From Conchocele bisecta (taxonomy: Eukaryota; Mollusca; Bivalvia; Lucinida; Thyasiridae): a stretch of DNA of 64,000 bases. This document shows, in pieces, positions 4,299 through 63,946 of the stretch; the first letter of the stretch is position 1; each line of letters begins with the position of its first letter. Location of the stretch: NCBI GenBank assembly GCA_029237695.1, contig CM055271.1, positions 32,856,462 through 32,920,461 on the forward strand, written 5' to 3'. The notes under the pieces were generated by a model. The model saw only the letters and a list, made by a program, of their open reading frames with translations, ran no database searches and was not told the origin of the DNA. Position numbers and translations under genes: made by a program.

Positions 4299-7200
4299 AG
4301 CTGTCCGTTGGATTACTACGTGTATGTACAGATGGAAACGAAAGTGACGGCATATACCAATGTATTGTAGGTTTGTGTTGTGAGCTGTCTGTCGGATTAC
4401 TACGTACATGTATGTACAGACAGAGATGAAAGTGACGGCATGTACCAATGTATTGTAGGTTTGTGTTGCGAGCTGTCTGTCGGATTACTACGTACGTGTA
4501 TGTACAGACAGAGATGAAAGTGACGGCATATGCCAATGTATTGTAGGTTTGTGTTGCGAGCTATCTGTCGGATTACTACGTACATGTATGTACAGACAGA
4601 GATGAAAGTGTCGGCATATACCAATGTATTGTAGGTTTGTGTTGCGAGCTGTCTGTCTGATTACTACGTGTATGTACAGACAGAGATGAAAGTGTCGGCA
4701 TATACCAATGTATTGTAGGTTTGTGTTGCGAGCTGTCTGTCGGATTACTACGTACGTGTATGTACAGACAGAAGATGAAAGTGACGGCATATACCAATGT
4801 ATTGTAGGTTTGTGTTGCGAGCTGTCTGTCTGATTACTACGTGTATGTACAGACAGAGATGAAAGTGACGGCATATACCAATGTATTGTAGGTTTGTGTT
4901 GCGAGCTGTCCGTCAGATTACTACGTGTATGTACAGACAGAGATGAAAGTGACGGCATATACCAATGTATTGTAGGTTTGTGTTGCGAGCTGTCCGTCAG
5001 ATTACTACGTGTATGTACAGACAGAGATGAAAGTGACGGCATGTACCAATGTATTGTAGGTTTGTGTTGCGAGCTGTCCTTCAGACTACGACTTGTATGT
5101 ACAGACCGAGACGAAAGTGAGTGCATATACCAATGTATTGTAGGTTTGTGTTGCGAGTTGTCCGTCGGATTACTACGTGTATGTACAGACATAGATGAAA
5201 GTGACGGCATATACCAATGTATTGTAGGTTTGTGTTGCGAACTGTTCATCAGACTACTACGTGTATGTACAAACGGAGATGAAAATGACGGCATATACCA
5301 ATGTATTGTAGGTTTGTGTTGCGAGTTGTCCGTCGGATTACTACGTGTATGTACAGACAGAGATGAAAGTGACGGCATATACCAATGTATTGTAGGTTTG
5401 TGTTGCGAGCTGTCTGTGGATTACTACGTGTATGTACAGACAGAGATGAAAGTGACGGCATATACCAATGTATTGTAGGTTTGTGTTGCGAGCTGTCTGT
5501 CGGATTACTACTGTATAGTACAGCTGAGATGAAAGTGACGGCATATGCCAAAGTATTGTAGGTTTGTGTTGTGAGCTGTCTGTCGGATTACTACGTGTAT
5601 GTACAGACAGAGATGAAAGTGACGGCATATACCAATGTATTGTAGGTTTGTGTTGCGAGCTGTCCGTCGGATTACTACCTGTATGTACAGACGGAGGCGA
5701 AAGTGACGGCATATACCAATGTATTGTAGGTTTGTGTTGCGAGCTGTCCGTCGGATTACTACCTGTATGTACAGACGGAGGCGAAAGTGACGGCATATAC
5801 CAATGTATTGTAGGTTTGTGTTGCGAGTTGTCTGTCAGATTACTACGTGTATGTACAGACTGAGATGAAAGTGACGGCATATGCCAAAGTATTGTAGGTT
5901 TGTGTTGTGAGCTGTCTGTCGGATTACTACGTGTATGTACAGACAGAGATGAAAGTGACGGCATATACCAATGTATTGTAGGTTTGTGTTGCGAATTGTC
6001 CATCGGATTACTACCTGTATGTACAGACGGAGGCGAAAGTGACGGCATATACCAATGTATTGTAGGTTTGTGTTGCGAGCTGTCCGTCGGATTACTACCT
6101 GTATGTACAGACGGAGGCGAAAGTGACGGCATATACCAATGTATTGTAGGTTTGTGTTGCGAGCTGTCCGTCGGATTACTACCTGTATGTACAGACGGAG
6201 GCGAAAGTGACGGCATATACCAATGTATTGTAGGTTTGTGTTGCGAGTTGTCTGTCAGATTACTACGTGTATGTACAGACAGAGATGAAAGTGACGGCAT
6301 ATACCAATGTATTGTAGGTTTGTGTTGCGAGTTGTCCATCGGATTACTACCTGTATGTACAGACGGAGGCGAAAGTGACGGCATATACCAATGTATTGTA
6401 GGTTTGTGTTGCGAGTTGTCTGTCGGATTACTACGTGTATGTACAGACAGAGATGAAAGTGACGGCATATGCCAAAGTATTGTAGGTTTGTGTTACAAAA
6501 TGTCTGTCGGATTACTACGTGTATGTACAGACAGAGATGAAAGTGACTGCATATACCAATGTCTTGTGGGTTTGTGTTGCGAGCTCTCCGTCAGATTACT
6601 ACGTGTGTGTAAAGACAGAGATGAAAGTGACGGAATATGCCAATGTATTGTAGGTTTGTGTTACGAAATGTCTGTCGGATTACTACGTGTATGTACAGAC
6701 AGAGATGAAAGTGACGGCATATACCAATGTATTGTAGGTTTGTGTTGCGAGTTGTCCGTCGGATTACTACCTGTATGTACAGACGGAGGCGAAAGTGACG
6801 GCATATACCAATGTATTGTAGGTTTGTGTTGCGAGCTGTCTGTCGGATTACTATGTGTCTGTACAGATGGAGGCGAAAGTGACGGCATATGCCAATGTAT
6901 TGTAGGTTTGTGTTGCGAGTTGTCCGTCGGATTACTACTTGTATGTACAGACAGAGATGAAAGTGACGGCATATGCCAATGTATTGTAGGTTTGTGTTAC
7001 GAAATGTCTGTCGGATTACTACGTGTATGTACAGACAGAGATGAAAGTGACTGCATATACCAATGCATTGTAGGTTTGTGTTACGAGCTCTCCGTCAGAT
7101 TACTACGTGTATGTACAGACGGAGACGAAAGTGACGGCATATACCGATGTGTTGTAGGTTTGTGTTGCGAGCTGTCTATCGGATTACTACGTGTGTGTAC

Positions 7201-10200
7201 AGACAGGGACGAAAGTGACGGCATATACCAATGTATTATAGGTTTGTGTTGCGAGTTGTCCGTCAGATTACTACGTGTATGTACAGACGGAGATGAAAGT
7301 GACGGCATATACCAATGTATTGTAGGTTTGTGTTGCGAGCTGTCTGTCGGATTCCTACGTGTATGTACAGACAGAGATGAAAGTGACGGCATATGCCAAT
7401 GTATTGTAGGCTTGTGTTGTGAGCTGTCTGTCGGATTACTACGTGTATGTACAGACAGAGATGAAAGTGACGGCATATACCAATGTATTGTAGGTTTGTG
7501 TTGCGAGTTGTCCGTCGGATTACTACCTGTATGTACAGACGGAGGCGAAAGTGACGGCATATACCAATGTATTGTAGGTTTGTGTTGCGAGTTGTCCGTC
7601 GGATTACTACGTGTATGTACAGACAGAGATGAAAGTGAGTGCATATACCAATGTATTGTAGGTTTGTGTTGCGAGCTGTCCTTCAGACTACGACTTGTAA
7701 GTACAGAGAGAGACGAAAGTGAGTGCATATACCAACGGAGATGAAATTGAAGGCATATGCCAATGTATTGTAGGTTTGTGTTGCGAGTTGTCCGTCGGAT
7801 TAATACGTGTATGTACAGACAGAGATGAAAGTGACGGCATATGCCAATGTATTGTAGGTTTGTGTTGCGAGCTGTCTGTCGGATTACTACGTGTATGTAC
7901 AGACAGAGATGAAAGTGACGGCATATACCAATGTATTGTAGGTTTGTGTTGCGAACTGTCTGTCGGATTACTACGTGTATGTACAGACAGAGATGAAAGT
8001 GACGGCATATACCAATGTATTGTAGGTTTGTGTTGCGAGCTGTCCGTCGGATTACTACGTGTATGTACAGACAGAGATGAAAGTGACGGCATATACCAAT
8101 GTATTGTAGGTTTGTGTTGCGAGCTGTCCATCGGATTACTACGTGTATGTACAGACAGAGATGAAAGTGATGGCATATACCAATGTATTGTAGGTTTGTG
8201 TTGCGAGCTGTCCGTCGGATTACTACATGTATGTACAGACGGAGACGAAAGTGACGGCATATACCAATGTATTGTAGGTTTGTGTTGCGAGCTGTCCGTC
8301 TGATTACTACGTGTATGTACAGACGGAGACGAAAGTGACGGCATATACCAATGTATTGTAGGTTTGTGTTGCGAGCTGTCCATCGGATTACTACGTGTGT
8401 ATACAGATGGAGACGAAAGTGACGGCATATACCAATGTATTGTAGGTTTGTGTTGCGAGCTGTCTGTCAGATTACTACGTGTATGTACAGACGGAGACGA
8501 ATGTGACGGCATATACCAATGTATTGTAGGTTTGTGTTGCGAGCTGTCCGTCGGATTACTACGTGTGTTACAATACAGATGGAGACGAAAGTGACGGCAT
8601 ATACCAATGTGTTGTAGGTTTGTGTTGCGAGCTGTCCATCGGATTACTACGTGTGTGTACAGACAGGGACGAAAGTGACGGCATATACCAATGTATTGTA
8701 GGTTTGTGTTGCGAGCTGTCCTTCAGACTACGACTTGTATGTACAGACGGAGACAAAAGTGAGTGCATATACCAATGTATTGTAGATTTCTGTTGCGAAC
8801 TGTTCATCAGACTACTACGTGTATGTACAAACGGAGATGAAAATGACGGCATATACCAATGTATTGTAGGTTTGTGTTGCGAGTTGTCCGTCGGATTACT
8901 ACGTGTATGTACAGACAGAGATGAAAGTGACGGCATATACCAATGTATTGTAGGTTTGTGTTGAAAGCTGTCTGTCGGATTACTACGTGTATGTACAGAC
9001 AGAGATGAAATTGACGGCATATGCCAATGTATTGTAGGTTTGTGTTGTGAGCTGTCTGTCGGATTACTACATGTATGTACAGACAGAGATGAAAGTGACG
9101 GCATATGCCAATGTATTGTAGGTTTGTGTTGCGAGTTGTCCGTCGGATTATTACCTGTATGTACAGACGGAGGCGAAAGTGACGGCATATACCAATGTAT
9201 TGTAGGTTTGTGTTGTGAGCTGTCCATCAGATTACTACGTGTATGTACAGACGGAGACGAAAGTGACGGCATATACCAATGTATTGTAGGTTTGTGTTGC
9301 GAGTTGTCCGTCAGATTACTACGTGTATGTACAGACAGAGATGAAAGTGACGGCATATACCAATGTATTGTAGGTTTGTGTTGCGAGTTGTCTGTCAGAT
9401 TACTACCTGTATGTACAGACAGAGATGAAAGTGATGGCATATACCAATGTATTGTAGGTTTGTGTTGCGAGTTGTCTGTCGGATTACTACGTGTATGTAC
9501 AGACAGAGATGAAAGTGAGTGCATATACCAATGTATTGTAGGTTTCTGTTGTGAACTGTTCATCAGACTACTACGTGTATGTACAAACGGAGATGAAAAT
9601 GACGGCATATACCAATGTATTGTAGGTTTGTGTTGCGAGTTGTCCGTCGGATTACTACGTGTATGTACAGACAGAGATGAAAGTGACGGCATATACCAAT
9701 GTATTGTAGGTTTGTGTTGTGAGCTGTCTGTCGGATTACTACATGTATGTACGGACAGAGATGAAAGTGACGGCATATGCCAATGTATTGTAGGTTTGTG
9801 TTGCGAGTTGTCCATCGGATTACTACCTGTATGTACAGACGGAGGCGAAAGTGACGGCATATACCAATGTATTGTAGGTTTGTGTTGCGAGTTGTCCGTT
9901 GGATTACTACCTGTATGTACAGACGGAGTCGAAAGTGACGGCATATACCAATGTATTGTAGGTTTGTGTTGCGAGTTGTCCGTCGGATTACTACCTGTAT
10001 GTACAGACGGAGGCGAAAGTGACGGCATATACCAATGTATTGTAGGTTTGTGTTGCGAGCTGTCCGTCAGATTACTACGTGTATGTACAGACGGAAACAA
10101 AAGTGACGGCATATACCAATGTATTGTAGGTTTGTGTTGCGAGTTGTCCGTCGGATTACTACCTGTATGTACAGACGGAGATGAAAGTGACGGCATATAC

Positions 10201-11080
10201 CAATGTATTGTAGGTTTGTGTTGCGAGTTGTCCGTCAGATTACTACCTGTATGTACAGACGGAGACGAAAGTGACGGCATATACCAATGTATTGTAGGTT
10301 TGTGTTGCGAGCTGTCTGTCAGATTACTACCTGTATGTACAGACAGAGATGAAAGTGACGGCATATACCAATGTATTGTAGGTTTGTGTTGCGAGTTGTC
10401 TGTCGGATTACTACGTGTATGTACAGACAGAGATGAATGTGACAGCATATACCAATGTATTGTAGGTTTGTGTTGCGAGTTGTCTGTCGGATTACTACGT
10501 GTATGTACAGACAGAGATGAAAGTGACGGCATATACCAATGTATTGTAGGTTTGTGTTGCGAACTGTCCGTCGGATTACTACGTGTATGTACAGACAGAG
10601 ATGAAAGTGACGGCATATACCAAAGTATTGTAGGTTTGTGTTGCGAGTTGTCCGTCGGATTACTACGTGTATGTACAGACAGAGATGAAAGTGACGGCAT
10701 ATACCAATGTATTGTAGGTTTGTGTTGCGAGCTGTCCATCAGATTACTACGTGTATGTACAGACAGAGATGAAAGTGACGGCATATACCAATGTATTGTA
10801 GGTTTGTGTTGCGAGCTGTCCATCAGATTACTACGTGTATGTACAAACGGAGATGAAACTGACGGCATATACCAATGTATTGTAGGTTTGTGTTGCGAGT
10901 TGTCCGTCAGATTACTACGTGTATGTACAGACAGAGATGAAAGTGACGGCATATACCAATGTATTGTAGGTTTGTGTTGCGAGCTGTCTGTCAGATTATT
11001 ACCTGTATGTACAGACAGAGATGAAAGTGACGGCATATACCAATGTATTGTAGGTTTGTGTTGCGATCTGTCAGCCTCAG
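4299..11080. repeat. Tandem array 1: about 81 copies of an 84-bp unit
   Basis: The unit contains GTAGGTTTGTGTTGCGAG, CTGTCNGTC(A/G)GATTACTAC, GTGTATGTACAGAC, GATGAAAGTGACGGC and ATATACCAATGTATT. Units differ by scattered substitutions. The length is a multiple of three and the consensus lacks stops in one frame on each strand, so long apparent ORFs (28-residue repeats CCELSVGLLRVC... on +, HKPTIHWYMPSLSS... on -) arise on both strands. Several are broken by TGA or indels, which argues against translation. The last unit shades into the SLC44A exon at 11081. A short hairpin, CTGTCTGT pairing with ACAGACAG, occurs in many units. Confidence 0.95.
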
Positions 11081-11205
11081 ATTACGTACTAGTAGTGTAC
11101 AGACTCACTTTAAAAGTGTTGGCTGGTACAGCCTCGACAGCCGACTATGAGAAGATGATCTGTAAGAATGGAGTTAATCCAAAGACGATTATGGAAACCC
11201 TGGGT
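11081..11205 (+). CDS. SLC44A (choline transporter-like) exon 1 of window, loop region
   Basis: This exon encodes a stretch ending ADYEKMICKNGVNPKTIMET then LG, followed by a perfect donor GTAAGT at 11206. It aligns with the extracellular loop of vertebrate CTL2 after its CPDRYLTYL segment: an acidic/aromatic stretch, then a Cys, then a short region before the DCPA motif. The phase at the donor is 0, which fits the next exon at 18696. The acceptor is uncertain. CCTCAG before 11081 and GTACAG before 11132 give the same frame, and the first lies in the degenerate last unit of array 1. CTL proteins are multi-pass membrane transporters of choline and related cations at the plasma and organelle membranes. 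The gene symbol is withheld because the paralogue cannot be decided. Confidence 0.7.
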
Positions 11206-18600: not shown

Positions 18601-18695
18601 AGTTACCAGGCAACAGGTTTGTGAAATTTGATCAGCAGCTGCACTTGTCACAAATCCCCATTTCTCCAGTCACAAATTATTTGTTGTTATTTCAG

Positions 18696-18765
18696 GCATC
18701 GACAGTGAAGTCGGAATTGATAGACTCTGAAAAATGCGCTGCCTACTATGTACCCACACGTAGCC
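18696..18765 (+). CDS. SLC44A exon 2 of window, DCPA-like loop segment
   Basis: The exon follows TTGTTGTTATTTCAG and ends before GTAAGT. It encodes ASTVKSELIDSEKCAAYYVP then TRS, plus one base. The KCAAYYVP segment corresponds to the conserved D/E-CPA-x-x-(I/V)P segment of CTL proteins, whose Cys lies in the disulphide-rich first loop. Incoming phase 0 matches the exon ending at 11205. The single trailing C joins TG at 39695 to make Leu, giving the L-V-G-R-C-I-P continuation. At 70 bp it is easily missed, but both splice sites and both phases agree. Confidence 0.85.
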
Positions 18766-18785
18766 GTAAGTCATGAACTAATTAA

Positions 18786-35475: not shown

Positions 35476-35820
35476 TGTGTTGCAGAGACTTGCGGGTTGG
35501 CTGCATTTTTCACGTAACTGCCCTGGCCTACTCATCCACAAATGGAGCCACTACGATGATGAATGGACCACTGTGTTTCTATATATTGGATTGTATCTAT
35601 GAATTAGATAACTGTACAAATATTTACAGTTGTGGGTCGGTGTGTTTCGTCCTTCTACCTGCTATATGTGACTGTGACTGGAGAAATGGGGATTATTGGT
35701 TTTGTGACTAGTGTAGATCCAGATCAGCCTGTGCATCCGCAGTCTGATCAGGATTTACACTGTTTGTCATTCCATCCAGCGCCATTTCTGTAATATATCT
35801 ATAGATTAGATGACCGTATA

Positions 35821-36015
35821 AAGTGAAAGTGAAAGGGTTTAACGTCTCAGCAGCAGCTAAGGTCATATAGAGACGGGACCACAGTTTAAAGTCTCATCCG
35901 ACAGACCAGTGGGATGGAAATACTATTAAAGTATTTTTGATGCCCAAGACAAGGTTTGAACCCACAATCTCCGGATTGGAAGTCAGGTGTTCTAACCCCG
36001 AGGCCAAAATCCATC
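35821..36015 (-). mobile_element. tRNA-related SINE, antisense fragment
   Basis: GGTTTGAACCCACAATCTCC followed by GGATTGGAAGTCAGGTG and TTCTAACCCC looks like the inverse of a tRNA-derived head. The B-box-like GGTTCAAACC and an anticodon-arm-like segment lie on the - strand. The other end, GAAAGGGTTTAACGTCTCAG, resembles SINE tails or cores common in molluscs. Confidence 0.55.
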
Positions 36016-36027
36016 CCAGATGACCGT

Positions 36028-39000
36028 ATAAATGTTTTCAGTGGTGGGTCGCTGTATTCAATCACAAATGCCCCATTTCTCCAGTCACTCGGCCACAACT
36101 TGTGTGAATTATTTCAGTGGTGGGTCACTGTATTCAATCACAAATGCCCCATTTCTCCAGTCACTCGGCCACAACTTGTGTGAATTATTTCAGTGGTGGG
36201 TCTCTGTATTCAATCACAAATGCCCCATTTCTCCAGTCACTCGGCCACAACTTTTGTGAATTATTTCAGTGGTGGGTCGCTGTATTCAATCAAAAATGCC
36301 CCATTTCTCCAGTCACTCGGCCACAACTTGTGTGAATTATTTCAGTGGTGGGTCACTGTATTCAATCACAAATGTCCCATTTCTCCAGTCACTCGGCCAC
36401 AACTTGTGTGAATTATTTCAGTGGTGGGTCGCTGTATTCAATCACAAACCTCCCATTTCTCCAGTCACTCGGCCACAACTTGTGTGAATTATTTCAGTGC
36501 TGTGTCGCTGTATTCAATCACAAACGCCACATTTCTCCAGTCACTCGGACACAACTTGTGTGAATTATTTCAGTGGTGGGTCGCTGTATTCAATTACAAA
36601 CGCCCCATTTCTCCAGTCACTCGGACACAACTTGTGTGAATTATTTCAGTGGTGGGTCGCTGTATTCAATCACAAACACCCCATTTATCCAGTCACTCGG
36701 ACACAACTTGTGTGAATTATTTCAGTGGTGGGTCGCTGTACATATTCAATCACAAACGCCCCATTTCTCCAGTCACTCGACCACAACTTGTGTGAATTAT
36801 TTTAGTGCTGGGTCGCTGTATTCAATCACAAACCTCCCATTTCTCCAGTCACTCGGCCACAACTTGTGTGTATTATTTCAATGGTAGGTCGCTGTATTCA
36901 ATCACAAACGTCCCATTTCTCCAGTCACTCGGCCACAACTTGTGTGAATTATTTCAGTGCTGGGTCACTGTATTCAATCACAAACGCCCCATTTCTCCAG
37001 TCACTCAGCCACAACTTGTGTGAATTATTTCAGTGGTGGGTCGCTGTATTCAATCACAAACGTCCCATTTCTCCAGTCACTCGGCCACAACTTATGTGAA
37101 TTATTTTAGTGGTGGGTCGCTGTATTCAATCACAAACCTCCCATTTTTCCAGTCACTCGGCCACAACTTGTGCGAATTATTTCAGTGGTGGGTCGCTGTA
37201 TTCAATCACAAATGCCCCATTTCTCCAGTCATTCGGCCACAACTTGTGTGAATTATTTCAGTGGTGGGTCGCTGTTTTCAATCACAAACGCCCCATTTCT
37301 CCAGTCACTCGGCCACAACTTGTATGAATTATTTCAGTGGTGGATCGCTGCATTCAATCACAAACGCCCCATTTCTCCAGTCACTCGGCCACAACTTGTG
37401 TGAATTATTTCAGTGCTGGGTCGCAGTATTCAATCACAAACACCCCATTTAGCCAGTCACTCGGCCACAACTTGTGTGAATTATTTCAGTGGTGGGTCGC
37501 TGTATTCAATCACAAACCTCCCATTTCTCCAGTCACTCGGCCACAACTTTTGTGAATTATTTCAGTGGTGTGTCGCTATATTCAATCACAAACCTCCCAT
37601 TTCTCCAGTCACTCGGCCACAACTTGTGTGAATTATTTCAGTGCTGGGTCACTGTATTCAATCACAAACGCCCCATTTCTCCAGTCACTCGGCCACAACT
37701 TGTGTGAATTATTTCAGTGGTGGGTCGCCGTATTCAATCACAAATGTCCCATTTCTCCAGTCACTCGGCCACAACTTGTGTGAATTATTTCAGTGGTGTG
37801 TCGCTATATTCAATCACAAACCTCCCATTTCTCCAGTCACTCGGCCACAACTTGTGTGAATTATTTCAGTGGTGGGTTGCTGTTTTCAATCACAAACGCC
37901 CCATTTCTCCAGTCACTCGGCCACAACTTGTATGAATTATTTCAGTGGTGGGTCGCTGTATTCAATTACAAACGACCCATTTATCCAGTCACTTGGCCAC
38001 AACTTGTGTGAATTATTTCAGTGGTGGGTCGCTGTATTCAATCACAAACGCCCCATTTCTCCAATCCCTCGGCCACAACTTGTGTGAATTATTTTGTTGC
38101 TGGGTCGCAGTATTCAATCACAAACGCCCCATTTAGCCAGTCACTCGGCCACAACTTGTGTGAATTATTTCAGTGCTGGGTCGCTGTATTCAATCACAAA
38201 CTTCCCATTTCTCCAGTCACTCGGCCACAACTTGTGTGAATTATTTCAGTGGTGGGTCACTGTATTCAATCACAAACCTCTCATTTCTCCAGTCACTCGG
38301 CCACAACTTGTGTGAATTATTTCAGTGGTGGGTCGCTGTATTCAATCACAAACCTCCCATTTCTCCAGTCACTCGGCCATAACTTTTGTGAATTATTTCA
38401 GTGGTGTGTCGCTATATTCAATCACAAACCTCCCATTTCTCCAGTCACTCGGCCACAACTTGTGTGAATTATTTCAGTGGTGGGTCACTGTATTCAATCA
38501 CAAACGCCCTATTTCTCCAGTCACTCGGCCACAACTTGTGTGAATTATTTCAGTGCTGGGTCGGTGTATTAAATCACAAACGACCCATTTCTCCAGTCAC
38601 TCGGCCACAACTTGTGTGAATTATTTCAGTGCTGGGTTGCTGTATTCAATCACAAACGCCCCATTTCTCCAGTCACTCGGCCACAACTTGTGTGAATTAT
38701 TTCAGTGCTGTGTCGCTGTATTCAATCACAAACGCCCCATTTCTCCAGTCACTCGGCCACAACTTGTGTGAATTATTTCAGTGCTGTGTCGCTGTATTCA
38801 ATCACAAACGCCCCATTTCTCCAGTCACTCGGCCACAACTTGTGTGAATTATTTTCAGTGCTGGGTCGGTGTATTCAATCACAGGTGCCCTATTTCTCCA
38901 GACACTCGGCCACAACTTGTGTGAATTATTTCAGTGCTGGGTGGCTGTATTCAATCACAAATGCCCCATTTCTCCAGTCACTCGGCCACAACTTGTGTGA

Positions 39001-39218
39001 ATTATTTCAGTGCTGTGTCGGTGTATTCAATCACAAACGCCCCATTTCGCCAGTCACTCGGCCACAACTTGTGTGAATTATCTCAGTGCTGGGTCGCTGT
39101 ATTGAATCACAAACGCCCCATTTATCCAGTCACTCGGCCACAAATTATGTGATTTATTTCAGTGGTGGGTCGCTGTATTCAATCACAAACGCCCCATTTC
39201 TCCAGTCACTCGGCCACA
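36028..39218 (+). repeat. Tandem array 2: about 42 copies of a 76-bp unit containing a splice acceptor
   Basis: The unit is CCCCATTTCTCCAGTCACTC, GGCCACAACTTGTGTGAATT, ATTTCAGTGGTGGGTCGCTG, TATTCAATCACAAACG. The part GTGTGAATTATTTCAG followed by TGGTGGGTCG is the same as the acceptor and first exon bases of the SLC44A exon at 39695. Each copy therefore repeats a 3' splice site plus about 10 matching bases of exon. The unit length leaves remainder one on division by three, so the frames rotate and the short staggered ORFs are artefacts. Most units are over 90 percent identical by eye; the right part is slightly more diverged. Confidence 0.95.
39207..39218. repeat. 12-bp target duplication, left
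   Basis: CACTCGGCCACA is repeated at 39663-39674 on the other side of the inserted retroposon. It belongs to the last 76-bp unit. Confidence 0.85.
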
Positions 39219-39662
39219 GTGGGTGGTGGTCTGGCGAACGAGACGGCGTAAATTAACGGTATAGGTTCCTCCTTATAGGAATCACGATTTGCCTGGTTTG
39301 ACCCTTAGGTACGTTTTTATCTTTGGCTCTTTAGTTACCTGGGAGTTGAATTGGGTTATTGCCCATTATAAAAGTAGTAAGATTATTAACGATCCTACTG
39401 CTTTTGAGAGGGGCCAAGTGATTCTGGTGTGGCGAGGACCTGGCATCAGATCAGGATTATTCTGATTTCAGGGCTATATATATAGTTTTGTTATTGTAAA
39501 TATTCAGTTCTGATTTTGGGATTTTCCTCCCATTTGTGCATGTACTTGAACATGTACATGTACTTGTACAGGTAATATAAGGGATTTAGTACTAAACCCA
39601 TTGACCTGGCCTTAAATGACCTTAGCTGTTGATAGGCCGTTAAACCCCAACAAACAAACAAA
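39219..39662 (+). mobile_element. Complete SINE-like retroposon in the last unit of array 2
   Basis: This 444-bp insertion starts GTGGGTGGTGGTCTGGCG and ends GATAGGCCGTTAAACCCC, followed by CAACAAACAAACAAA. It is flanked by the 12-bp duplication CACTCGGCCACA. An A-rich AAAC tail plus a target duplication show retroposition. It separates the array from the final half-unit that forms the real exon acceptor. Confidence 0.85.
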
Positions 39663-39694
39663 CACTCGGCCACAACTTGTGTGAATTATTTCAG

Positions 39695-39833
39695 TGGTGG
39701 GTCGGTGTATACCGTCCTTCTTCTTGGACATAGCCGAAAAAGTGAGTCAGCTGAATTCCACTGATGGTGGGGTAGGACTGACCAACATGGATGGCACAGA
39801 GATCAATGGCAACAACATGGAGGAGGGCAGCTA
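39695..39833 (+). CDS. SLC44A exon 3 of window, end of extracellular loop
   Basis: The acceptor is GTGAATTATTTCAG and the donor is GTGAGT at 39834. The exon encodes VGRCIPSFFLDIAEKVSQLN, then STDGGVGLTNMDGTEI, then NGNNMEEGS. L-V-G-R-C-I-P, formed with the previous exon, matches the A-x-R-C-(F/L)-P motif of CTL proteins. NST is an N-glycosylation sequon, consistent with a luminal or extracellular position. It starts with two bases that finish a Leu codon and ends with TA that joins C at 44101 to give Tyr. The first 18 bases are shared with the 76-bp repeat unit. Confidence 0.9.
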
Positions 39834-39982
39834 GTGAGTCACCATTGTACTCTTCTTTTTCTTTTATTTGAAATTCAGTGCGTATTCATTTATTGAGCAA
39901 TAATATTGTTCAATAAATGTAAATCCATCAATTAAAATTTCCGGCCCCCAGGACAGCAGTTTGTTTTTCACTACTTGTTATC

Positions 39983-44100: not shown

Positions 44101-44184
44101 CTTCCTAGCCAAGTTTTACCAGGTTAAGGAATACGGAGAGTTGATATTCAAAGATGTCGTCAACTCCTGGTGGCTCATACTGGC
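44101..44184 (+). CDS. SLC44A exon 4 of window, into membrane helix
   Basis: The acceptor is TGTGCCTATTTCAG and the donor is GTATGT. It encodes FLAKFYQVKEYGELIFKDVV, then NSWWLIL, with one base before and two after. The FKD-x-x-x-SWW-x-IL segment matches the IFED-x-x-x-SW(Y)W-I(I/L) motif that opens the second helix of CTL proteins. Phases fit both neighbours: TA+C on the left, GC+G on the right. Confidence 0.9.
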
Positions 44185-47584: not shown

Positions 47585-47697
47585 GTGTCTTGGTGGAGCG
47601 ATGGTCTTCTGTTTCATCTGGATCGTCCTGCTGCGTTGGATCGCGGGAATCATGGTCTGGTTTTCGATTATAGCTTTCCTCGGCGTCTGGTCATACG
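47585..47697 (+). CDS. SLC44A exon 5 of window, RW(I/L)AGIMVW membrane segment
   Basis: The acceptor is CATGTTTCAG and the donor is GTGAGT. It encodes CLGGAMVFCFIWIVLLRWIA, then GIMVWFSIIAFLGVWSY. LLRWIAGIMVW is almost the same as LLRFLAGIMVW in vertebrate CTL2. It covers the end of one helix, a short turn and the next helix. The first G finishes an Ala codon and the last G joins CA of the exon at 56011, again Ala. It is the best-conserved exon in the window. Confidence 0.95.
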
Positions 47698-49035: not shown

Positions 49036-52000
49036 CAACTCTGAGTCCGGTTTAGAGAGGTTCCATTGTACGGTGAGGTTCCCAGATTGTCCATTGTAGA
49101 GAGGTTCCACTGTACGGGGGCCTCCCAGATTGTCCATTGTAGAGATGTTCCACTGTACGGGGGCCTCCCAGATTGTCCATTGTAGAGATGCTCCACTGTA
49201 CGGGGGCCTCCCAGATTGTCCATTGTACAGAGGTTCCACTGTACGGGGGCCTCCCAGATTGTCCATTGTAGAGATGTTCCACTGTACGGGGGCCTCCCAG
49301 ATTGTCCATTGTAGAGAGGTTCCACTGTACGGGGGCCTCCCAGATTGTCCATTGTAGAGATGTTCCACTGTACGGGGGCCTCCCAGATTGTCCAGTGTAG
49401 AGATGTTCCACTGTACGGGGGCCTCCCAGATTGTCCATTGTAGAGAGGTTCCACTGTACTGGGGCCTCCCAGATTGTCCAGTGTAGAGATGTTCCACTGT
49501 ACGGGGGCCTCCCAGATTGTCCAGTGTAGAGATGTTCCACTGTACTGGGGCCTCCCAGATTGTCCAGTGTAGAGATGTTCCACTGTACGGGGCCGCCTCC
49601 CGATTGTCCATTGTAGAGATGTTCCACGTACTGGGGCCTCCAGATTGTCCAGTGTAGAGATGTTCCACTGTACGGGGGGCCTCCCAGATTGTCCAGTGTA
49701 GAGATGTTCCACTGTACTGGGGCCTCCCCGAATTGTCCAGTGATAGATGTTCCACTGTACGGGGGCCTCCCAGATTGTCCATTGTAGAGAGGTTCCACTG
49801 TACGGGGGCCTCCCAGATTGTCCATTGTAGAGATGTTCCACTGTACGGGGGCCTCCCAGATTGTCCATTGTAGAGGCTCCACTGTACGGGGGCCTCCCAG
49901 ATTGTCCATGTAGAGATGTTTCCACTGTACGGGGGCCTCCCAGATTGTCCATTGTAGAGAGTTCCACTGTACGGGGGCCTCCCAGATTGTCCAGTGTAGA
50001 GATGTTCCACTGTACGGGGGCCCTCCCAGATTGTCCCAGTGTAGAGAGGTTCCACTGTACGGGGGCCTCCCAGATTGTCCAGTGTAGAGATGTTCCACTG
50101 TACGGGGGCCTCCCAGATTGTCCAGTGTAGAGAGGTTCCACTGTACGGGGGCCTCCCAGATTGTCCAGTGTAGAGAGGTTCCACTGTACGGGGGCCTCCC
50201 AGATTGTCCATTGTAGAGAGGTTCCACTGTACGGGGGCCTCCCAGATTGTCCATTGTAGAGAGGTTCCACTGTACGGGGGCCTCCCAGATTGTCCATTGT
50301 AGAGAGGTTCCACTGTACGGGGGCCTCCCAGATTGTCCAGTGTAGAGATGTTCCACTGTACTGGGGCCTCCCAGATTGTCCAGTGTAGAGATGTTCCACT
50401 GTACGGGGGCCTCCCAGATTGTCCATTGTAGAGAGGTTCCACTGTACGGGGGCCTCCCAGATTGTCCAGTGTAGAGATGTTCCACTGTACGGGGGCCTCC
50501 CAGATTGTCCATTGTAGAGATGTTCCACTGTACGGGGGCCTCCCAGATTGTCCAGTGTAGAGATGTTCCACTGTACGGGGGCCTCCCAGATTGTCCAGTG
50601 TAGAGATGTTCCACTGTACGGCGGCCTCCCAGATTGTCCAGTGTAGAGATGTTCCACTGTACGGGGGCCTCCCAGATTGTCCATTGTAAAGAGGTTCCAC
50701 TGTACGGGGGCCTCCCAGATTGTCCATTGTAGAGATGTTTCACTGTACGGGGGCCTCCCAGATTGTCCATTGTAGAGATGTTCACTGTACGGGGGGGGCC
50801 TCCCAGATTGTCCAGTGTAGAGATGTTCCTCCACTGTACGGCGGCCTCCCAGATTGTCCAGTGTAGAGATGTTCCACTGTACGGGGCCTCCCAGATTGTC
50901 CATGTTAGAGAGGTCCACAGTACGGGGGCCTCCCAGATTGTCCAGTGTAGAGAGGTTCCACTGTACGGGGGCCTCCCAGATTGTCCAGTGTAGAGAGGCT
51001 CCACTGTACTGGGGCCTCCCAGATTGTCCATTGTAGAGAGGTTCCACTGTACGGGGGCCTCCCAGATTGTCCAGTGTAGAGAGGCTCCACTGTACTGGGG
51101 CCTCCCAGATTGTCCAGTGTAGAGAGGTTCCACTGTACGTGGGGGCCTCCAGATTGTCCAGTGTAGAGATGTTCCATTGTACTGGGGCCTCCCAGATTGT
51201 CCAGTGTAGAGAGGTTCTACTGTACTGGGGCCTCCCAGATTGTCCAGTGTAGAGATGTTCCATTGTACTGGGGCCTCCCAGATTGTCCAGTGTAGAGATG
51301 TTCTACTGTACTGGGGCCTCCCAGATTGTCCAGTGTAGAGATGTTCCATTGTACTGGGGCCTCCCAGATTGTCCAGTGTAGAGAGGTTCCATTGTACTGG
51401 GGCCTCCCAGATTGTCCAGTGTAGAGAGGTTCTACTGTACGGGGGCCTCCCAGATTGTCCAGTGTAGAGAGGTTCCATTGTACGGTGAGGTTCCCAGATT
51501 GTCCAGTGTAGAGATGTTCCACTGTACGGGGGCCTCCCAGATTGTCCATTGTAGAGAGGTTCCACTGTACGGGGGCCTCCCAGATTGTCCAGTGTAGGGA
51601 TGTTCCACTGTACTGGGGCCTCCCAGATTGTCCAGTGTAGAGATGTTCCACTGTACGGGGGCCTCCCAGATTGTCCATTGTAGAGAGTTCCACTGTACGG
51701 GGGCCTCCCAGATTGTCCAGTGTAGAGATGTTCCACTGTACGGGGGCCTCCCAGATTGTCCATTGTAGAGATGTTCCACTGTACGGGGGCCTCCCAGATT
51801 GTCCAGTGTCCAGGTAGAGAGGTTCCACTGTACGGGGGCCTCCCAGATTGTCCAGTGTAGAGAGGCTCCACTGTACTGGGGCCTCCCAGATTGTCCAGTG
51901 TAGAGAGGTTCCACTGTACGGGGGCCTCCCAGATTGTCCAGTGTAGATGTTCCATTGTACTGGGGCCTCCACCATTGTACGTGTAGAGATTCTACTGTAC

Positions 52001-55000
52001 TGGGGCCTCCCAGATTGTCCATGTAGAGTGTTCTACTGTACTGGGGCCTCCCAGATTGTCCAGTGTAGAGATGTTCCATTGTACTGGGGCCTCCCAGATT
52101 GTCCAGTGTAGAGAGGTTCCATTGTACTGGGGCCTCCCAGATTGTCCAGTGTAGAGAGGTTCTACTGTACGGGGGCCTCCCAGATTGTCCAGTGTAGAGA
52201 GGTTCCATTGTACGGTGAGGTTCCCAGATTGTCCAGTGTAGAGATGTTCCACTGTACGGGGGCCTCCCAGATTGTCCATTGTAGAGAGGTTCCACTGTAG
52301 GGGGTCGCCTCCCGATTGTCCAGTGTAGAGATGTTCCACTGTACTGGGGCCTCCCAGATTGTCCAGTGTAGAGATGTTCCACTGTACGGGGGCCTCCCAG
52401 ATTGTCCATTGTAGAGATGTTCCACTGTACGGGGGCCTCCCAGATTGTCCAGTGTAGAGATGTTCCACTGTACGGGGGCCTCCCAGATTGTCCAGTGTAG
52501 AGATGAACCATTCCTGTACTGTACTGGGGGCCTCCCAGATTGTCCAGTGTAGAGAGTTCCACTGTACGGGGCCTCCCAGATTGTCCATTGTAGAGATGTT
52601 CCACTGTACGGGGGCCTCACAGATTGTCCATTGTAGAGATGTTCCACTGTACGGGGGCCTCCCAGATTGTCCATGTTCCACTGTACGGGCGCCTCCCAGA
52701 TTGTCCAGTGTAGAGATGTTCCACTGTACGGGGGCCTCCCAGATTGTCCAGTGTAGAGATGTTCCACTGTACGGGGGCCTCCCAGATTGTCCAGTGTAGA
52801 GAGGTTCCACTGTACGGGGGCCTCCCATATTGTCCATTGTGAGAGTCACTGTACGGGGGCCTCCCAGATTGTCCAGTGTAGAGAGGTTCCACTGTACGGG
52901 GCCTCCCAGATTGTCCCAGTGTAGAGATGTTCCACTGTACTGGGGCCTCCAGATTGTCCATTGTAGAGATGTTCCACTATTACGGGGGCCTCCAGATTGT
53001 CCCAGTGTAGAGATGTTCCACTGTACGGGGGCCTCCGGGGCCCAGATTGTCCATGTAGAGATGTTCCACTGTACAGGGGGCCTCCCAGATTGTCCATTGT
53101 AGAGATGTTCCACTGTACGGGGGCCTCCCAGATTGTCCATTGTAGAGATGTTTCACTGTACGGGGGCCTCCCAGATTGTCTAGTGTAGAGATGTTCCACT
53201 GTACGGGGGCCTCCCAGATTGTCCATTGTAGAGAGGTTCCACTGTACGGGGGCCTCCCAGATTGTCCATTGTAGAGATGTTTCACTGTACGGGGGCCTCC
53301 CAGATTGTCTAGTGTAGAGATGTTCCACTGTACGGGGGCCTCCCAGATTGTCCAGTGTAGAGTTCCACTGTACGGGGCCTCCCATATTGTCCATTGTAGA
53401 GGTCCACTGTACGCCTCCCAGATTGTCCAGTGTAGAGATGTTCCACTGTACGGGGCCTCCCAGATTGTCCAGTGTAGAGAGTTTCCACTGTACGGGGGCC
53501 TTCCCATATTGTCCATGTAGAGATGTTCCACGTATGGGGCCTCCCAGATTGTCCAGTGTAGAGATGTTCCACTGTACGGGGGCCTCCCAGATTGTCCATT
53601 GTAGAGATGTTCCACTGTACGGGGGCCTCCCAGATTGTCCAGTGTAGAGATGTTCCACTGTACGGGGGCCTCCCAGATTGGTCCATTTGTAGAGATGTTC
53701 CACTGTACGGGGCCTCCCAGATTGTCCATTGTGAGATGTTCCACTGTACTGGGGGCCTCCCGATTGTCCAGTGTAGAGAGGTTCCACTGTACGGGGCCTC
53801 CCAGATTGTCCATTGTGAGATGTTCCACTGTACGGGGGCCTCCCAGATTGTCCTGTAGAGAGGTTCCACTGTACGGGGGCCTCCCAGATTGTCCAGTGTA
53901 GAGAGGTTCCACTGTACGGCGGCCTCCCAGATTGTCCATTGTGAGAGGTTCCACTGTACTAGGAAAGCCTCCCAGATTGTCCATTGTAGAGATGTTCCAC
54001 TGTACGGGGGCCTCCCAGATTGTCCATTGTAGAGATGTTCCACTGTACGGGGGCCTCCCAGATTGTCCATTGTAGAGAGGTTCCACTGTACGGGGGCCTC
54101 CCAGAGTGCCCAGTGTAGAGATGTTCCACGGTACTGGGGCCTCCCAGATTGTCCATTGTAGAGATGTTCCACTGTACGGGGGCCTCCCAGATTGTCCAGT
54201 GTAGAGATGTTCCACTGTACGGGGGCCTCCCAGATTGTCCAGTGTAGAGATGTTCCACTGTACGGGGGCCTCCCAGATTTTCCATTGTAGAGATGTTCCA
54301 CTGTAAACAGGGGGCCTCCCAGATTGTCCATTGTAGAGATGTTTCACTGTACGGGGCCTCCCAGATTGTCTAGTGTAGAGATGTTCCACGTACGGGGGGC
54401 CTCCCAGATTGTCCATTGTAAGAGGTTTTCCACTGTACGGGGCCTCCCATTGTCCCATTGTAAGATGTTTCACTGTACGGGGGCCTCCCAGATTGTCTAG
54501 TGTAGAGATGTTCCACTGTACGGGGGCCTCCCAGATTGTCCAGTGTAGAGAGGTTCCACTGTACGGGGGCCTCCCATATTGTCCATTGTATGGGAGTTCC
54601 ACAGTACAGGGCCTCCCAATTGTCCCAGTGTAGAGATGTTCCACTGTACGGGGGCCTCCCAATTGTCCATGTAGAGAGGTTCCACTGTACGGGGGCCTCC
54701 CATATTGTCCATGTAAGAGATGTTCCACTGTACTGGGGCCTCCCCGATTGTCCAGTGTAGAGATGTTCCACTGTACGGGGCCTCCCAGATTGTCCATTGT
54801 AGAGATGTTACCACTGTACGGGGGCCTCCCAGATTGGCCAGTCTAGAGATGTTCCACTGTACGGGGCCTCCCAATTGTCCATTGTATGAAGATGTTCCAC
54901 TGTACGGGGAACGGGGGCTCCCAGATTGTCCATTGTAGAGATGTTCCACTGTACGGGGCCCTCCCAAATTGTCCATGTAGAGAGGTTCCACTGTACGGGG

Positions 55001-55945
55001 GCCTCCCATTGTCCATTGTAGAGATGTTTCACTGTACGGGGGCCTCCCAATTGTCCAGTGTAGAGAGGTTCCACTGTACTGGGGGCCTCCCAATTGTTCA
55101 TGTAGAGAGGTTCCACTGTACGGGGGGCCTCCCAGAATTTGTCCATTGTAGAGTTCCACGTACGGGGGCCTCCCAGATTGTCCATTGTAGAGATGTTTCA
55201 CTGTTACGGGGGCCTCCCAGATTGTCCATTGTAGAGAGGTTTCACTGTACGGGGCCTCCCAGATTGTCCATTGTAGAGATGATTTCCACGGTACGGGGCC
55301 GTCCCAGATTGTCCAGGTGTAGAGGTTCCACTGTAACGGAGGCTCCCAGATTGTCCAGTGTAGAGAGGTTCCACTGTACGGGGCCTCCCAGATTGTCCAT
55401 TGTAGAGATGTTCCACTGTACGGGGCCTCCCAGATTGTCCATTGTAGAGTTCCACTGTACGGGCCTCCCAGAATTGTCCAGTGTAGAGAGGTTCCAACAG
55501 TAACGGGCCTCCCCGATTGTCCATTGTGAAAGATGTTTCCACTGTACGGGGCCTCCCAGAAATTGTCCATTGTAGAGAGGTTTTCCACTGTACGGGGCCT
55601 CCCAGATTGTCCAGTGTAGAGATGTTCCACTGTAACGGGGGCCTCCCAGAATGTCCAGTGTAGAGAGGTTCCACTGTAAGGGGCCTCCCAGATTGTCCAT
55701 TGTAGAGATGTTTCACTAGTAGGGGGCCTTCCCAGATTGTCAGTGTAGAGAGGTTCCACTGTACGGGGCCTCCCAGATTGTCCATTGTAGAGATGTTCCA
55801 CTGTACGGAGGCCTCCCAGATTGTCCAGTGTAGAGAGGTTCCACTGTACGGGGGCCTCCCAGATTGTCCATTGTAGAGATGTTCCAATGTACGGGGGCCT
55901 CCCAGATTGTCCATTGTAGAGATGTTCCACTGTAATGTTCCACAT
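49036..55945. repeat. Tandem array 3: about 160 copies of a 43-bp unit
   Basis: The unit is GATTGTCCA(T/G)TGTAGAGA, (T/G)GTTCCACTGTACGGGGG, CCTCCCA. The - strand consensus has no stop in any frame, so ORFs of up to 967 codons with the motifs MDNLGGPRTVEPLYNGQSG and SGTSLHWTIWEAPVQWN appear. The 43-base period makes them cycle through all three frames, which marks them as artefacts. The left half is nearly free of indels; from about 52.3 kb rightward many one- or two-base indels appear. The array lies in the SLC44A intron before the exon at 56011. Confidence 0.95.
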
Positions 55946-56010: not shown

Positions 56011-56145
56011 CAACCTACTACTCATTTGATCGCTACTTCACCTTGAACGACAGCGAAGCTCCAGACCAGGAATATGGAGTAGCCCCGGCCTTCTCTGGCG
56101 AGTTCTCGTATTATCTCACCCTCAAGAAAACCTGGCTCGCATTTG
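56011..56145 (+). CDS. SLC44A exon 6 of window, TWLAF segment
   Basis: The acceptor is TTTATTGTTGCAG and the donor is GTAAGT. It encodes TYYSFDRYFTLNDSEAPDQE, then YGVAPAFSGEFSYYLTLKKT, then WLAF. Y-L-x-L-(K/R)-x-TWLAF is the CTL-family signature between the third and fourth helices. The loop before it is somewhat longer than in vertebrate CTL2. It begins with CA, completing Ala from the previous exon, and ends with a single G completed by GG at 63847 (Gly). Confidence 0.95.
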
Positions 56146-63846: not shown

Positions 63847-63946
63847 GGTGTATTTGTGGGATACTGTTGGCAATCTTCCTCCTGGTTTTCCTGTTCATCG
63901 TGAGTAGAATCTGCATCGCCATTGAGTTGATCAAGGAGTCCAGCAG
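63847..63946 (+). CDS. SLC44A exon 7 of window, helix plus CIAIELIKE motif
   Basis: The acceptor is TCTACCATCAG and the donor is AG followed by GTACAG. It encodes CICGILLAIFLLVFLFIVSR, then ICIAIELIKESS. A long hydrophobic helix is followed by the amphipathic R-(I/V)-x-IAI-x-LIKE-(A/S)-SR motif, a hallmark of SLC44A proteins. GG at the start completes Gly from the preceding exon. It ends with two bases of an Arg codon. The next exon, expected to continue towards the conserved C-terminal half, lies beyond 64000. Confidence 0.9.

Follow-up and report, generated by a model that had tools for sequence, protein, structure and literature searches.

A tandem array of exon-border splice acceptors in a choline transporter-like gene of the bivalve Conchocele bisecta

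Splice borders repeated in tandem are known from the human CBS gene. A 31-bp variable number tandem repeat (VNTR), named c.1444_1467+7(16_21), repeats a donor border 16 to 21 times, and in a second variant, 844ins68, the junction of intron 7 and exon 8 is duplicated and splicing strongly favors the more distal copy, termed a 'donor' in the source (PMC2630376). Here, we describe an acceptor border repeated about 42 times in a 64,000-nucleotide window of the Conchocele bisecta genome (C7:32856462-32920461, C7 being contig CM055271.1 of a 1.89-Gb genome; coordinates without the C7 prefix are window positions). The array lies ahead of exon 2 of a predicted CTL2/SLC44A-like gene. The array resembles the 31-bp VNTR, whose name gives 24 exonic and 7 intronic bases per unit, in being a tandemly repeated splice border with many copies of one splice site; it differs in consisting of about 42 acceptors rather than 16 to 21 donors. 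The closest match to that VNTR is instead a 31-bp donor array of about 33 to 35 copies at exon 6 of the window gene and its paralogue. Variant 844ins68 is likewise a tandem duplication of an intron/exon junction with competing sites, two in CBS, but it has one extra copy and no array, and its sequence context and species are others. Romano et al. (2002) reportedly dealt with 3' splice site selection in 844ins68. At NAGNAG alternative tandem acceptors, neighboring 3' splice sites a few bases apart compete and the choice falls at the second step. The acceptors in the window would likewise compete as neighbors, but as 76-bp units that each have their own intron end. Work on how one of several identical 3' splice sites is chosen usually relies on systems with few competing copies. 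The present gene has some 40 near-identical acceptors ahead of a single exon, and a paralogue has about 50 that no spacer separates from their exon, which makes the locus a strong natural test of that choice. Searches of the open-access literature turned up no previous description of an array built from an acceptor border.

The array occupies 36042-39218 on the forward strand. Tandem Repeats Finder (TRF) reported a 76-bp unit in 41.8 copies at 36036-39218 with 93% matches, and alignment of each unit to the consensus gave 42 starts (36042-39163), the last unit being cut by a retroposon-like insert. Of each unit, 18 nt correspond to the exon start and 20 nt, including the AG, to the intron end; the roughly 38 nt between them are shared with a dispersed repeat. 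With head-to-tail units of 76 bp, it falls within the 10-100 bp range of minisatellites/VNTRs, and it is also a splice-border repeat in that the unit spans the junction and the exon follows directly on the array. Copies vary by substitution, with almost no indels. Over the last 20 intron bases, 28 of the 42 decoys are identical to the real acceptor, and 17 of the 42 remain so over 23 bases (20 of intron and 3 of exon). The original prediction of about 42 copies of a 76-bp unit carrying the acceptor of exon 2 agrees with these counts. Its figure of some 42 decoy acceptors is right for unit starts, but the AG is intact ahead of 40 of them, and the acceptor at the left edge (ATGTTTTCAG, 36032-36041, forward strand) is unlike that of the unit.

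The remainder of the last unit (39663-39694, forward strand; C7:32896124-32896155) stands directly before exon 2 and matches the unit at 32/32 positions (E = 2.5e-7 genome-wide). It had been called the functional acceptor; the half-unit itself is plain, and its function is best worded as a prediction. Between this remainder and the rest of the array lies a 444-bp retroposon-like dispersed repeat with an AAAC-rich tail (39219-39662, forward strand). It is flanked by two copies of CACTCGGCCACA (39207-39218 and 39663-39674), a 12-bp target duplication of array sequence, and its flanks, when joined, form one continuous unit ending in exon 2. Near full-length relatives of the insert were found at three loci (L017, L022 and L028) within the 276 kb compared.

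Exon 2 (LVGRCIPSFFLDIAEKVSQLNSTDGGVGLTNMDGTEINGNNMEEGS; 39695-39833, forward strand, donor GTGAGT at 39834) agrees in phase with both of its neighbors, the upstream exon (ASTVKSELIDSEKCAAYYVPTRS; 18696-18765, forward strand, donor GTAAGT at 18766), recognized by its reading frame and by alignment to CTL2 orthologues, and the next exon (FLAKFYQVKEYGELIFKDVVNSWWLIL; 44101-44184, forward strand, end read by eye). The introns on its two sides measure 20,929 and 4,267 nt, and the joined peptide that includes exon 2 aligns to CTL2 orthologues. The start of exon 2 encodes LVGRCIPS, whose G, R, C and P residues do not vary in an alignment with 11 mollusc orthologues, ten from bivalves and one from a gastropod, chosen among 120 listed matches. 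Because this peptide is conserved among mollusc orthologues, the array copied the exon border and not vice versa, and exon 2 predates the array. The earlier proposal that the array grew out of the intron-exon border gains support from the conserved peptide in 11/11 orthologues, from the restriction of full units, among the best candidates, to two loci, and from the sister array of gene C, which has a single-copy paralogue.

The window gene, referred to here as gene A (forward strand, continuing beyond the window), is one of four SLC44A genes that lie within about 700 kb on C7. The others are gene B (about C7:33.07-33.10 Mb, reverse strand), gene C (about C7:33.30-33.33 Mb, forward strand) and gene D (about C7:33.49-33.56 Mb, forward strand). 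A and D are segmental duplicates whose main blocks are 88-97% identical. A query of gene A exons 3-6 joined with D exon 7 matched Choline_transpo (PF04515) at 6.3e-32. When a partial protein joined from window exons and paralogue exons was searched, the first-ranked relatives were choline transporter-like proteins of the heterodont bivalves Mactra, Mercenaria, Dreissena and Mya (120 listed of 2162 matches), and the named best relatives among the matches listed include CTL2 of Mercenaria and Mya. On its Pfam match and relatedness, the window gene is assigned as a predicted bivalve CTL2/SLC44A-like gene. The 69-aa peptide of the two exons gave 0 matches to solved structures and 0 Pfam families.

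Genome searches with array units were scored for the best candidates only. Within that scope, the unit consensus had 113 matches, with full units at two places. The second place is C7:33497201-33501295, 605 kb away, where the array runs without an insert into exon 2 of gene D. Sixteen other matches elsewhere are partial and cover mainly the middle of the unit, so that full units at many unrelated loci, the mark of a dispersed or transposon-borne satellite, were not seen among the best candidates. The arrays of A and D have 42 and 55 unit starts, with intact AG in 40/42 and 50/55, respectively. Both begin at the same left-edge acceptor, in the same place, so the array predates the divergence of A from D. 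Among the 41 full units of A the mean difference is 7.2%, among the 36 clean full units of D it is 7.8%, and between the two arrays it is 8.3%. The middle of the D array (C7:33499134-33500033) is rich in one-base indels, unlike the array ends, which is possibly assembly noise.

Clear matches to exon 2 in the genome number only two, those of A and D; no other match was found below E 8, and the equivalent exons of B and C were not found. Between A (39695-39833) and D (locus L024, 1296-1437), 108/132 aligned bases of exon 2 are identical with 21 gap columns, and the exon is open in both despite those gaps. The first 108 intron bases after the exon are identical at 107 positions, and to the left of the array the flanking sequence is just 88% identical. 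Such divergence of an exon beside a near-identical intron may reflect conversion on the right, or a loop that evolves fast. The likely counterpart of the upstream exon in D is a weak match (E = 1.36) at C7:33489184-33489246. The retroposon had been suggested as one feature that favors the last acceptor; D has an open exon without any such insert, and the insert would therefore be unnecessary for that choice.

Judged by sequence, the decoys are no weaker than the real site. In D, none of 55 equals the real site of D itself, which carries one change, and 29/55 equal the real site of A. Predicted splicing from 18765 to the intact-AG decoys led to a premature stop before the donor in 40/40 cases in A and 50/50 in D, the phase of the D readings being set from the upstream exon of A. 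These stops begin at least 78 nt ahead of the exon end, and no decoy reading stays open. The expectation that most decoys would splice out of frame was thus right in that decoys disrupt the reading, and too weak in its extent. The conserved protein would be obtained only from the exon-proximal acceptor. From the nearest decoy, the exon would measure 218 nt in D and 671 nt in A, the greater length in A being due to the 444-bp insert. As for masking of the decoys by RNA structure, one three-unit stretch was folded and was no better than its shuffles (z 0.62).

The array is not a one-off: comparison of the paralogues revealed three further splice-border arrays in the cluster, four in all. The first is the donor-border array directly after exon 6, with a 31-bp unit in 32.7 copies in gene A (C7:32936666-32937690, beyond the window) and in 34.7 copies in gene D (C7:33535738-33536839). 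The second is an acceptor-border array before exon 6 of gene C (C7:33314246-33314894), with a period of about 56 and 11.3 copies, the units being mostly 56-57 bp. In the third, acceptor borders of exon 5 (GGTTACAG|GAATCATC) recur within a compound unit, about 128 bp long, ahead of exon 5 of gene C (C7:33298709-33299966) and of gene B (C7:33099147-33101052). Among the best candidates of the genome searches, matches to the sister arrays lie at these genes only. Decoy GTAAG donors in the 1,150 bp downstream of exon 6 lead to a stop in 32/32 cases (A) and 30/30 (D), and the exon-5 decoys found by pattern do so in 9/9 (B) and 10/10 (C). By reading frame, the working site of each sister array is predicted to be the one closest to the exon body, and the exons of B and C beside their own arrays remain open. 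A splice border has thus been multiplied dozens of times, recurrently within one cluster, without breaking the reading frame of the exon.

Exon 6 of genes B and C provides a pair in which the border is amplified in one copy and single in the other. In gene B, the border has one match (C7:33077553-33077623) and intron end TTGTTTATTCTTT and exon GTGTTTATGCTATTT share a short, imperfect direct repeat at a distance of 57 bp, compared with units of mostly 56-57 bp in C. We take this repeat, which straddles the splice site, as the putative seed of the duplication seen in C. The two genes can be viewed as a before/after pair, a single border and an amplified one. The exon-6 array of C is full of one-base indels.

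The array of gene A is, in our view, probably a tolerated minisatellite, born within the gene by tandem duplication of an exon border, with splicing taking the site closest to the exon body. We infer that the first border copies arose when about 18 nt of the exon-2 start and the intron end, with a fragment of an older dispersed repeat, came to lie as a direct repeat. From this, slippage or unequal exchange among copies would have built up the 76-bp array, which would have been carried along with the gene in the segmental duplication, and the retroposon would have entered the window copy later. Further left, at 35630-35682 (forward strand), the start of exon 2 occurs once more in degenerate form and with an AG (TTTACAG|TTGTGGGTCGGTGTGTTTCGTCC), followed by an inverted piece of the dispersed repeat; the intron part of this copy can be aligned with the array's left edge at a score of 62 (best of 300 shuffles, 32). 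The pre-mRNA would present some 40 competing 3' splice sites, and the spliceosome would join 18765 to 39695. In long introns, the sites closest to each other across the exon are favored (PMC9225289). Exon 2 would accordingly be defined across itself, with the acceptor nearest the donor and with the exon body behind it winning, and mis-spliced products would be removed by nonsense-mediated decay. The array would have no function of its own.

Several observations weigh against this reading. The same splicing study reports that, at near-equal 3' sites in genes with long introns, the upstream preference is significantly reduced, and does not state a reversal (PMC9225289); because of this, the last of 40 sites would not be guaranteed to win unaided. 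One of the eight decoys found by pattern at exon 6 of gene C stays open with 60 extra nt, the other seven leading to a stop. The intron end is the least variable part of the unit in both arrays (2.2% and 1.8% against 4-7% elsewhere), a weak hint that the acceptors may be conserved; permutation gave p = 0.08 (A) and 0.02 (D) by frequency, and 0.31 and 0.08 by distinct variants. Finally, exons 7-10 of gene A were not found in 114 kb searched, 34 kb of it past exon 6, and gene A may make no normal product.

This last point leads to the alternative that fares best, which we regard as possible though improbable, that the SLC44A copies are no longer needed and their borders have been free to amplify in decaying genes. 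Gene A lacks a complete set of recognized SLC44A exons, its N-terminal exons having received no further search. D carries exons 7-10, no Pfam match was found from C7:32936683 to C7:33069401, that is, beyond exon 6 of gene A, and homology between A and D stops in the 31-bp array after that exon. Gene A may be a truncated copy, and its continuation after exon 6 (C7:32937690 onward) looks like either a truncated duplicate or a mis-join. Exon 6 of D, too, shows indels of 7 nt and 2 nt over a conserved segment. Set against this, exon 2 is open in both copies despite its 21 gap columns, exons 3-5 of A and D are intact and hardly differ from each other, the exons that adjoin arrays in B and C are still open, and the indels of D are possibly assembly noise.

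Less probable still, and in our opinion unlikely, is a retained regulator, in which decoys capture spliceosomes to yield decay-prone RNA and array length tunes the output of the transporter. The presence of the array in both paralogues with mostly intact AGs, the low variation of the acceptor part and the stops in all products of intact-AG decoys are what such a regulator would show. The CBS 31-bp repeat has also been associated, reportedly by Lievers et al. (2001), with enzyme activity. The conservation signal, on the other hand, is weak and fails by distinct variants, the arrays differ among paralogues and exons, the three-unit stretch has no structure beyond chance, and the three sister arrays at other borders favor a general mutational process.

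That a satellite came first and supplied exon 2 with its acceptor and first codons would account for the near-identity of unit and border and for the roughly 38 bp in common with a dispersed repeat, but it is very improbable given the conservation of the border peptide in ten bivalves and one gastropod and the confinement of full units, among the best candidates, to exon 2, the matches elsewhere being partial and mostly of the unit middle. An assembly artefact, to which the one-base indels in parts of the D array and in the exon-6 array of C might point, is just as hard to credit, as the window array has substitutions and hardly any indels, its boundaries are found again 605 kb away, next to a different exon body and without the retroposon, and the target duplication of the insert is intact.

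Amplification of borders bears on the birth of intronic satellites. We suggest, tentatively and as a doubtful generalization, that exon borders are recurrent minisatellite seeds here, in which short direct repeats of intron end and exon give rise to a class of tandem-acceptor and tandem-donor arrays, that exon definition and RNA decay nearly hide these arrays from selection, and that array length may modulate the splicing of individual genes. Arrays cover 14-36% of the four gene stretches, and their contact with exons was compared with chance by placing arrays of period at least 20 and length at least 150 bp at random, using the recognized exons only (A 7, D 10, B 4, C 4). The expected partial overlaps were 0.40 (A), 0.72 (D), 0.19 (B) and 0.15 (C), and those observed were 1, 2, 1 and 2, the count for A omitting the window array, which the retroposon sets apart from exon 2. 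With D and C as independent representatives, there were 4 overlaps against 0.87 expected (Poisson 0.012), or 3 against 0.87 (Poisson 0.057) once the array known beforehand was removed. No listed exon was wholly covered by an array against 0.4-2.6 expected, a count in which swallowed exons could escape recognition. Borders appear to be struck somewhat above chance, which at these small numbers is suggestive only. A cautious reading would be that borders are occasionally amplified in this genome, which is rich in satellites, and that they survive through one intact copy beside the exon body. At other SLC44A genes on C4 (L001, L005, L006 and L008; 3-kb loci), where positions were compared by eye, no lookalike of a border array was found, and these loci have few repeats with a unit of at least 15 bp.

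The remaining exons of gene A in the window, all on the forward strand and with ends read by eye, are exon 3 (CLGGAMVFCFIWIVLLRWIAGIMVWFSIIAFLGVWSY, 47585-47697), exon 4 (56011-56145) and exon 5 (63847-63946). A scan of the whole window against Rfam gave 0 matches. To the left of the array, at 35822-36017, is a dispersed repeat that looks by eye like a tRNA-derived short interspersed element and has 14-bp direct repeats at 35808-35821 and 36018-36031. At the intron end before the upstream exon (18640-18695), the tail of the dispersed repeat, CCCCATTTCTCCAGTCAC, lies no more than 60 bp from the AG. A similar-looking candidate acceptor, not verified as an exon, occurs near 4300 of locus L021. 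Two other minisatellites are prominent in the window, one with an 84-bp unit in about 81 copies (4299-11104, in two TRF rows) and one with a 43-bp unit in about 160 copies (49045-55934).

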